Source: Cercospora beticola | Taxonomy: Eukaryota > Ascomycota > Dothideomycetes > Mycosphaerellales > Mycosphaerellaceae | Assembly (NCBI RefSeq): GCF_033473495.1 | Contig: NC_088938.1 | Span: forward strand, 1,922,001 to 1,986,000 | Direction: 5' to 3' | DNA: 64,000 nucleotides | Shown here: positions 57,846 through 61,015 of the stretch, piece after piece | Layout: the number at the start of each line of letters is the position of its first letter | How positions within the stretch are numbered: position 1 is the stretch's first letter | Translations under genes and position numbers: made by a program | The notes under the pieces: model-generated | Databases searched by the model: none | The model's input: only the letters and a program-made list of their open reading frames with translations | What the model was told of the DNA's origin: nothing

Positions 57846-57962
57846 TCAGATGTTTTGTTGATTCTGAGCGGGCCGCAGCCCTCGCCGGCACTACAAGAAG
57901 GGCTTTCTTCCCCTACCAAACCTCTTCTTCTTTTCCCCAGCTCTCTTTGCCTTTTGGCTTAG

Positions 57963-58017
57963 GTCAGTCACACTTCCACCTCTTCGATCCATTGCACAAC
58001 CGCTAACAGTTCAGAAG
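57963..58017 (+). other. Spliceosomal-type intron 1 in U2
   Basis: A 55-nt insert beginning GTCAGT and ending AGAAG, with branch-like GCTAAC at 58002-58007. Removal joins TTGGCTTAG to ATCAAGTG, the invariant U2 order. The nearer CAG at 58014 would leave three extra bases, so AAG is preferred. Confidence 0.88.
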
Positions 58018-58027
58018 ATCAAGTGTA

Positions 58028-58083
58028 GTGAGTTTGGCGCCACATCCCGAGTTCAATGACTGCTTGTTGACCACTGCTCCCAG
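58028..58083 (+). other. Spliceosomal-type intron 2 in U2
   Basis: A 56-nt insert with a consensus donor GTGAGT and acceptor CCCAG. Branch candidates are GTTGAC (58066-58071) and AATGAC (58055-58060). Removal joins ATCAAGTGTA to GTATCTGTTC, an exact match to the invariant segment, and rebuilds GUAGUA. Confidence 0.92.
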
Positions 58084-58232
58084 GTATCTGTTCTTTTCAG
58101 TTTAATCTCTGAAACGTCACTACGGTGACCTTCTAGATTATTCTTATTTTTTGAACCAGTCTCTGGGCCGCTGAGCTTGCTCATGTCCAGTGGCACCGTG
58201 TCGCTGGCCTTGCACTGCCGCCTGCTGACGCG

Positions 58233-58539
58233 AACACCTTTCATCAGTCTCTCGCAACTGCGGGCACCTGGAGAAGAGTGTGCGGCCTTCGAGGTATCGT
58301 TGATGCCGAGTGGTGGAATCTTCGACGCGCCATGGCAGGAAAACAGGAGTCGAGAACATGTGTCGGCCGGACCAGGCCAAATCTATTAAGTGCAAGCGCT
58401 CGCTGATCTATAATGCTGCCGCCCCGCAAACTCCTGACGGCAGCAGTTTCCGACAGAAGCGCCTCTATCCTGTTGTACAATGCTTTGAGCAGAGAGTGAT
58501 TTCTCCCAAACGACCATCTTACATGCGACTCGTATCCAA
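58233..58539. other. Intergenic region between U2 and FAM210-like
   Basis: About 300 bp of convergent 3' flanks. No gene is recognised. Confidence 0.4.
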
Positions 58540-59392
58540 TTACGCCGGTGTTGGCTTCGGCTTGCCAATTTGCCAGCCCCATTTTCGCAGTTGTTTGACG
58601 ACCTTTGGTGTTATGGCCAGGGTGATGGGGATTCGGAAGAAAATGAGCGACTTGTGCACGCCATATGCGAGCAGGAGTTGTGTACCAAGACCTACTATTA
58701 TCAGCCCATGTGGTAGTGCAAGACATGCTACTCGATGACCTACCTGGATTCTTACTCTTCGCTTGTTCAGCAACCTGGTCGCCGGCCTCACGCGCTGCAG
58801 CCGCAGCTTCTTCCGCAGCACTTGCCTCCTTTTCGAGTCGTCTGTCCTTCAAACTCGGCATGACCTTCTCGGCGATGTCCCAGAAGCCATCCATAATTTT
58901 GTGCTCTATCTCCGCTATCCGCTCCGTGCCAAACCACTTCACTGCTAGGAAGCAGAACGGGAAGTCGAGCACTGATAGGCCGAGATAGATGCCTGTCACT
59001 GTCCAACCGTACTTCCGCGACATCTCCTTCATCCGCTCCGACAGAGATCGGGGCTTTGCGCCATCTGCTGCCTGACTGCTGTAACCCCGACGCGTCCGTA
59101 CATTCGGCCTGGCTTTGCCTTGGACTGTCCGCCACAGTCTTTTCCCTAGCAACGCGTTTGCATTCCCGCTCGTCAATCCTCGCCTTTGAGGAGCTGTTGG
59201 GCTCGGAAGTTGTGGTAATCGTCTCGCGATTGTTTGCCTCATCGGCGCCCGCAGCGTGGCATCGTGGAATGCCGTCTGGCGGAAGAGCTGCAGTAGTCGC
59301 GGTGACTTGAGCATGACCGGTTGCGATCGACGTTGTCGTATGGAGATGATGGGCGATCGATGCTCGCGAAATATTCCTCGCAGCCTTGACAT
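58540..59392 (-). CDS. Mitochondrial FAM210/DUF1279-domain protein
   Basis: Exons are 59392-58744 and 58691-58540, giving 266 aa. The N-terminal about 115 residues are Arg-, Ser- and Gln-rich with almost no acid, a mitochondrial targeting pattern. The DUF1279 domain starts with LSERMKEMSRKYGWTVTGIYLGLSVLDFPFCFLAVKWFG. After an acidic Ala/Glu-rich helix interrupted by the intron it ends with GLGTQLLLAYGVHKSLIFFRIPITLAITPKVVKQLRKWGW. Two membrane segments are expected, in the inner membrane. Relatives include human FAM210A/B and yeast Nat2; the molecular role is poorly defined. An alternative start is the in-frame ATG at 59314. Confidence 0.87.
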
Positions 59393-61015
59393 CACATCAC
59401 AGCCCCGAACGTAGCTTTTGACGCTGCGGGCCGACCCTGTGCCAAGCCTGCTCTCTCGCTGATGAGCGCACAAGACGGGCTCAGGTCCTGCTCTTTCGCT
59501 CGTCGTACACCGAGATTTCAGGCAGTTTCACGGCACGACCACGTCTGCAGCAGATGGTTGCGTTTTGTTTCCGCGTGACAGTCTCACTTGTTGCTAAGAT
59601 GCACGCCGAGAAACCTACAGAGGTTCTACCGGACCCTCTCCGTCGCTTCCCAGCGTGAGGCTCGAGGCGGCGAATCTGGTTGCGACTGTGCCGCGCATCT
59701 CCAAAGTTAAATCCAGGAATATGACGGCGCTTTGATGCCCAAGTTTCTTCGTGTGTTGGGCTCGTGCATTGTCTCGAGGCAGAGAGGAGTTACGATTGGC
59801 ACTGTGTGCTGCGCGTAGCCGACTCCAATTTCACGGCAACCCGAGTCTCGAGCACTGGAGCCGGCGAGGCCGTGAGCAGGCTGCACAGCTGGCCCTTGGG
59901 AGACCCGCTGATGAATCGCCATCGTCGTAAGCGAAGGGACAGCGACAAGATCACACGCGCAAGGACCAATAGTCGCGGCGGATGCTGGCGAGGATGCTCA
60001 AGCTCCTCCGCAGGCGTTCGATCGAATGGTCTGGTTGTCGGCTAGCTTCCGATTCCTTCGCAGCCATGCGCCTGGTTTTGCTGTAACTACCGCATTCGAA
60101 GCTGTCGAGCACATATCGTACGCTACGGGGTCTGCTCGTCGACGCCAGGCGCAGCGGATAGGTAGTGATCTGCATGCCTGCTGAACGCGCCACAATGTAG
60201 TGCCACCAACCGAACCAGAAGCACAGCAGAGTGGAAAGGATTCTAAAGCCTGGGTATGGGGGTCACTAATTTCGGTTCCGAAGGCGTCACTTGGGGCTGC
60301 TGGAGATACATGTGGTTGTAATGAATGACTTCGCACGCCGTCAGCCGTGCAACATGGCTCATTCGCGGCGGGACGATTGTCGCTGCATCAGAATGCGGCT
60401 CTAATGGTGCTGATAAGAATGCCTGAGGGCCGCAGGTGATTGCGGCTGATATTGGCTAAAGTCAATATCTTACCCTTCGGGGCGGTCGCCCGCATAACGT
60501 GATGGCAGCCCTCGTCTGTCTCGAACTCTATATTAGCATCCCTCGGCATGTGGCTGAGGAGCATGCACGCAAACGGTTAACTTTGGGACGCGCACATCCT
60601 GGCAAGGATGTGGTGGGAAAGTGACTCCTGGCGACGTTCTTCCACTGCCTCTCCGCGCTGTCATTGAAACGCAGCGGGTGGAGCATTAGCTCAGTCGCAG
60701 CCGCCTTTACTTCGCATTTGCGTGAAGCTTATTTGGAGCCTTTTTCTAGGACACTGCGTGCCCGAAACGGCTTTCATCAGCCCGGCCTTGACGCGACAGG
60801 GTGCTGCTGCGAGCACATGTGAGGCTGCCGGCTCGCCAGCAGACGCAGCAGCAGACATAAAGGCCTCCAGCCCGGTGGCTCACCCAGGGTAAGCCCACCC
60901 CATTATTCTGTGCTACGACTTGACTTGATCTCTTTCCCTTGCTCCCCAATCGCTACGCCCTCGCACTCCACCTGTGCCCTCTGACATTCGCATTACGTGC
61001 CACCGACGAGCCGCC
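59393..61015. other. Gene-poor stretch
   Basis: About 1.6 kb. No supported gene and no recognised RNA. A TAGCTCAGTCG sequence near 60688 resembles a tRNA A box, but no matching B box follows. Confidence 0.4.

Follow-up and report, generated by a model that had tools for sequence, protein, structure and literature searches.

The window analysed here, the whole 64-kb stretch of DNA at C4:1922001-1986000 in a genome of 36,074,111 bases (36.07 Mb) on 10 contigs, carries a U2 snRNA gene whose 5' domain is divided by two GT..AG inserts (Table 1). The reading that we prefer, at a probability of roughly 90%, is that this is a real U2 gene, that all four U2 genes found in the genome are split where the two GUA of the branch-site recognition element meet, three of them also in the part pairing with U6, and that the supply of U2 would need U2 that already exists. 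The GUAGUA of U2, split by intron 2 into GUA|GUA, pairs with the branch site of introns, and GAUCAAG with its neighbours, the part in which intron 1 lies, pairs with U6 in helix I.

Under this explanation, Pol II would transcribe a pre-U2 from an snRNA-type promoter, and spliceosomes already present would excise intron 2, and intron 1 where there is one, so that the two GUA are joined and a normal U2 5' domain results. The RNA would be capped, Sm-bound and trimmed near the 3' hairpin that it shares with other snRNA genes. New U2 would therefore need old U2, if no intronless copy exists.

Structure of the window gene and the case for introns

The sole Rfam match in the 64-kb window is to U2 (RF00004), at 58056-58239 (+), and even on unspliced DNA it scores 95.4 bits, where the gathering score is 46. 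Together with three paralogues, an empty site in one of them (L003) and the divergence of introns relative to exons, this bears out the sequence-only reading, which had proposed a U2 snRNA gene with two mRNA-type introns. The 3' part aligns well to the model, while the 5' model positions are forced onto the end of intron 2, where the match begins. The Sm site and stem-loops IIa, IIb, III and IV follow each other in the order that had been read, with one non-standard pair each in IIb, III and IV. When the spliced window U2 is folded freely to its minimum free energy, stem-loop I is kept and IIa is not; this fold is only moderately better than those of shuffled sequences (z -2.8), one in 200 of which equals it. 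The 5' end of U2 was placed at the start of conservation.

Two other features of the window were also noted. An ORF at 58244-59473 (-), with a FAM210A/B-like domain, has its stop codon about 10 nt past U2 exon 3, inside the 3' flanking element, and a PNGase-A-like protein is 78-80% identical to its Cercospora zeina and C. zeae-maydis counterparts and 61% to that of Septoria linicola. Taken by itself, this one protein suggests a Cercospora-like Dothideomycete.

Table 1. Features of the U2 gene in the window (window positions) and 3' elements of three U1 copies (contig positions)
Feature	Position	Strand	Description
Degenerate TATA-like box (ACTACAAGAA)	57890-57899	+	Other three U2 copies: CTATAAA or CATAAA plus upstream RCTAGC
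U2 snRNA gene	57939-58234	+	RF00004 match, 95.4 bits
U2 exon 1 (AGCTCTCTTTGCCTTTTGGCTTAG)	57939-57962	+	24 nt; 5' end and stem-loop I; identical in 4/4 copies
Intron 1	57963-58017	+	55 nt; GTCAGT..CTAAC..CAGAAG; in U2/U6 helix I region
Branch-like CTAAC, intron 1	58003-58007	+	
Tandem acceptor CAGAAG, intron 1	58012-58017	+	AAG required for exact U2
U2 exon 2 (ATCAAGTGTA)	58018-58027	+	10 nt; 3' end is first GUA of branch-site recognition element; identical in 4/4 copies
Intron 2	58028-58083	+	56 nt; GTGAGT..TTGAC..CCCAG; between GUA and GUA of branch-site recognition element
Branch-like TTGAC, intron 2	58067-58071	+	
U2 exon 3 (GTATCTG..)	58084-58234	+	151 nt; second GUA, stem-loops IIa, IIb, III, IV
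Sm site (ATTTTTTGA)	58146-58154	+	From RF00004 alignment
3' flanking element (TTTCATCA-hairpin-TGGAGAAGA)	58239-58277	+	Common to U1, U2, U3 and U4 genes of the genome
U1 L028, 3' element	G000:C9:1581886-1581925	-	
U1 L036, 3' element	C3:3753393-3753432	-	
U1 L042, 3' element	C5:3719428-3719471	-	

The near-invariant U2 5' domain GAUCAAGUGUAGUAUCUGUUC is non-contiguous in the DNA and is restored once both inserts, each with GT and AG ends, are removed. This was measured by comparing the 300 bases upstream of exon 3 with the contiguous 34-nt 5' sequence of L003, the copy without intron 1, with GT..AG segments of 40-120 nt taken out. Removing two such segments gave 34/34 matches and removing one gave at most 14, whereas 300 dinucleotide shuffles of this stretch, from which two segments could likewise be taken out, gave a maximum of 18 (mean 13.2). 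A chance origin of the split structure is rejected on these numbers.

A U2 profile built from L015, L017, L018 and L019, on eukaryotic-looking contaminant contigs, recognises the spliced sequences better than the genomic ones in all four copies, its best hit rising from 46-51 to 78-83 bits (L016 was left out of the profile because its 5' end is degenerate). Before splicing, L003 gives an additional, separate match to the 5' part of the profile, of 16.6 bits. The U2 pattern, scanned against a genome-contig collection, returned five stretches on four records, and no match in the viral contig collection. Since Rfam identifies U1, U2 or histone elements on those four records, they are taken to be eukaryotic contaminants. 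Predicted pairing with the U6 of this genome is stronger for the spliced 5' domain (-12.3 kcal/mol) than for an unspliced stretch of the same length (-8.6 kcal/mol). The window as a whole holds seven strict intron-like motifs of 48-56 nt, against a mean of 1.5 and a maximum of 6 in 20 shuffles, and 20 examples of a looser motif, against a mean of 10.8 and a maximum of 18.

Exons have been conserved between the copies while introns have diverged. Exons 1 and 2 are identical in all six copy pairs, exon 3 is 94.7-99.3% identical, and no pair has an indel over the 185 exon nucleotides, whereas intron 2 shows 3-15 gap columns and an identity of 60-69% (92% in L001/L002), and the 60 nt upstream of the gene one of 58-70%. 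The excess of substitutions in intron 2 over the exons is clear in three of the six pairs (p 3e-6, 2.3e-7 and 0.00057), weak in L001/L004 (0.025; L004 is the window copy) and absent in L002/L004 (0.085) and L001/L002 (0.68). Gene conversion could account for part of the sameness of the exons.

The four U2 loci and the supply of U2

A search of the genome with the U2 model found four loci on four contigs (95.4-99.2 bits), all above the cut-off and all misaligned over the 5' end; the search scored 46 of 447 first-look candidates, and the snRNA copy numbers given here are lower bounds. When 107 nt of exon 3 were used as the query of a DNA search, at E values up to 10, the same four loci alone were returned. 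All of them have intron 2, so that an intact, intronless U2, which the sequence-only reading had named as a sign that the locus is a pseudogene, was found neither among the best 46 of 447 candidates of the model search nor by the exon-3 search at E<=10. It is very improbable, then, that all four loci are interrupted pseudogenes and that an undetected normal U2 does the work. The share of candidates scored and possible gaps in the assembly would leave room for such a gene, but the exon-3 search reached no fifth locus, and the four, on four separate contigs, have kept their splice signals and have unbroken exons.

Intron 2 occupies the same site in all four copies (TGTA|GTATCTG), starts with GTGAGT or GTAAGT, ends in AG and has CTAAT, CTGAC or TTGAC as its branch-like motif. 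It measures 55-61 nt, and the seven U2 introns taken together 53-61 nt, with the branch A placed 11-16 nt before the end of every one. GT..AG ends are found in all four copies of intron 2 and in one of the three of intron 1. The copy without intron 1, L003 on contig C8, reads GGCTTAG-ATCAAG (GGCTTAGATCAAG), an exact empty site. In L001 and L002, intron 1 ends in CACG and not in AG, with the branch motif and its spacing intact, and exact removal would need a non-AG acceptor because there is no AG between the branch motif and exon 2. In the window copy, a CAG lies 3 nt upstream of the AAG, and its use would leave an extra AAG in U2; in a tandem CAG-AAG, the second acceptor is the weaker one. To judge from these sequences, an ideal intron-1 acceptor appears in none of the three copies.

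As only intron 2 needs to be removed from L003, and the intron-1 acceptors of the other copies are poor, L003 is the best candidate for the main source of U2. Its unspliced pre-U2 reads GTGTAGTAAGT, the intron starting with GTA, and GUAGUA is therefore present both before and after splicing; the unspliced RNA of the other three copies reads GUAGUG at the same place.

The window copy differs from the others in its promoter. RCTAGC, 61-72 nt upstream, and TATA, 46-47 nt upstream, are present in the other three U2 copies and both are missing here, so that its promoter looks the weakest of the four and the copy may be weakly expressed. It is quite possible, if short of probable, that the window copy is a decaying paralogue with real introns, which is little expressed or yields a U2 with an extra AAG, working U2 coming mainly from L003. 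Its tandem intron-1 acceptor and its seven exon differences to L003 would agree with decay, as would the missing motifs. However, neither motif is universal among the snRNA genes, since the U1 copy L042 is without RCTAGC and the U4 copy L012 without TATA; exons 1 and 2 are fully conserved though intron identity to the other copies is only 66-69%; and the copy has no exon indels, an intact 3' element and a canonical intron 2. That exons 1 and 2 have stayed unchanged speaks for a copy that was functional over most of its past. Decay of this one copy is compatible with the preferred explanation for the gene family, in which U2 would be spliced from interrupted genes.

Other spliceosomal RNAs, the 3' element and the origin of the introns

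Among the copies found, introns are present in three of four U1, four of four U2 (intron 1 in three), one of three U4 and, apparently, two of two U3 genes, and in neither the one U5 nor the one U6; the search scored only the best candidates, and snRNA genes that the 3'-element patterns do not cover may have escaped. The intronless U1 (L010) scores 47.1 bits, below the U1 cut-off of 69.5. The three further U1 copies (L028, L036 and L042) did not come up when the genome was searched with the Rfam U1 model and were uncovered through their 3' element; at 33.6-37.6 bits against that cut-off, they illustrate how easily annotation overlooks intron-split snRNA genes. Each has a 53-56-nt GTGAGT..CTAAC..CAG intron that splits ATACTT|ACCTTG after a first exon of 6 nt, a site inside the 5' end that pairs with 5' splice sites. 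The U1 exons of L028 and L042 are identical (131/131) and their introns 72% alike.

Two of the three U4 copies are intronless and read ATCCGAGTGCAAGGGC. In the third, L014 (G000:C5:2245026-2245170, +), ATCCGAGTG is followed by a 56-nt GTAAGT..TTTAG intron, which lies where U4 pairs with U6; this copy is diverged outside the intron (79-82%) and carries an extra small palindromic insert before the 3' stem. The intronless U1 and U4 paralogues give exact empty sites for the introns of these two RNAs. For U5, two genome patterns for an intron-split gene were searched, the first of which found only L011 and the second nothing. L011 (G000:C2:1032694-1032802, -; 49.6 bits), the only U5 match, shows neither the promoter motifs nor the 3' motifs found at the other snRNA genes. 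The two U3 genes appear to have one intron each, one of them starting with GC, and are without an empty site.

The 3' flanking element is perhaps a processing signal. Its pattern occurs at nine places in the genome, against none for the reversed pattern, and a looser pattern at 19, against six. Six of these 19 (L031, L033, L034, L043, L044 and L046) were set aside as chance occurrences, having no Rfam match at E<=0.1 and no snRNA-like surroundings. In the form TTTCATCA-hairpin-TGGAGAAG, the element is found in the window and at 12 further loci, and is useful for finding hidden snRNA genes. Nine of 13 example hairpins were folded, with z from -0.8 to -5.2, that of the window being modestly stable (z -1.89). 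One locus with the element, L040 (G000:C5:2048661-2048704, +), also has an Sm-like AATTTTTGG and a TATA-like box and is a candidate Sm-class RNA, for which Rfam gives no match at E<=0.1.

Intron 2 was most likely present before the four paralogues separated, since it lies at the same site and is 60-92% alike in all of them; for L001/L004 (68%), 300 shuffles gave a mean of 49% and a maximum of 58.5%. We consider it highly unlikely that mobile introner-like elements or self-splicing introns make up the inserts, instead of mRNA-type introns gained one by one. Introner-like elements are known in Dothideomycetes (PMC4457414). Of the 11 introns of U1, U2 and U4, the one searched was intron 2 of L001, and a genome search at E values up to 10, which skips very common words, returned no more than this intron itself and that of L002. 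Many near-identical genome copies, the mark of an introner, were not found for it, and the lack of a match outside U2 speaks against an introner burst. Self-splicing is countered by the length of 53-61 nt, far below the size of group I or group II introns, and by the Rfam scan at gathering scores, with U2 as its only finding in the window.

The introns occupy four distinct sites in the three RNAs, every one in the first 34 nt and in a pairing segment, for which a uniform model gives p ~0.002, a post hoc value based on rounded RNA lengths. Such clustering agrees with reverse splicing into RNAs that sit in splicing complexes. U1 and U4, however, leave the spliceosome before catalysis, and a general 5' preference, as in U3, would explain the clustering too. 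Tentatively, and with rather more doubt than belief, we consider that the lineage may have no uninterrupted U2 at all, its spliceosome being obligatorily self-made and inherited as working particles because each U2 template is divided within the nucleotides by which introns are recognised, and that the sites in U1, U2 and U4 would record introns spliced backwards into complex-held RNAs. Paralogues with and without introns at exact sites (U1 3/4, U4 1/3, U2 intron 1 3/4) make the entry of introns into spliceosomal RNAs, by reverse splicing or by DNA-level events, testable in a group of filamentous ascomycetes.

Comparison with known systems

If the introns are spliced, U2 genes would need working U2, a strict self-dependence of a core machine and possibly a built-in feedback on splicing capacity. 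The nearest likeness is the U2 gene of the basidiomycete yeast Rhodotorula hasegawae, reportedly described by Takahashi et al. in 1993, in which a single mRNA-type intron, about 60 bp long, directly follows the branch recognition sequence. Both systems thus have an mRNA-type intron by the branch-recognition region, but here it lies inside the recognition sequence, there is a second intron, the organism is an ascomycete and all four copies found are interrupted. The U1 and U5 of R. hasegawae also carry introns, and Canzler et al. are said to have described, in 2016, introns in the U6 of fission yeast and other fungi. In these cases, as here, spliceosomal introns sit in functional segments of the spliceosome's own RNAs, but the single U5 and U6 matches of the present genome are without introns, and U1 (3/4), U2 (4/4) and U4 (1/3) are the ones split. 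Bhattacharya et al. are said to have found, in 2000, spliceosomal introns in ascomycete rDNA, again mRNA-type introns in a non-coding RNA, but in rRNA and not in a spliceosomal RNA.

Fungal U3 snoRNA genes offer a further likeness. Normal spliceosomal introns are usual in them (PMC5832005), 133 of 138 lying in the 5' half, and the same article, of 2017, counts U3 and U6 alone among small structured RNAs as known to be frequently split. What U3 shares with the present genes is a small structured RNA with spliceosomal introns, most of them towards its 5' end, and both U3 genes here appear split; since U3 is not part of the spliceosome, its introns bring no self-dependence.

Among the matches listed in the open literature, as titles and the starts of abstracts, there is no report of introns in ascomycete U1, U2 or U4, which does not establish absence from print; the parts available of two articles (PMC3033335 and PMC6461891) have no bearing on such introns. 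The kind of structure described here is already known from mRNA-type introns in U6 and from the one in U2 of R. hasegawae, while the location inside GUAGUA, the interruption of all copies found and the genome-wide set that includes U1 and U4 are, as far as can be told, new.
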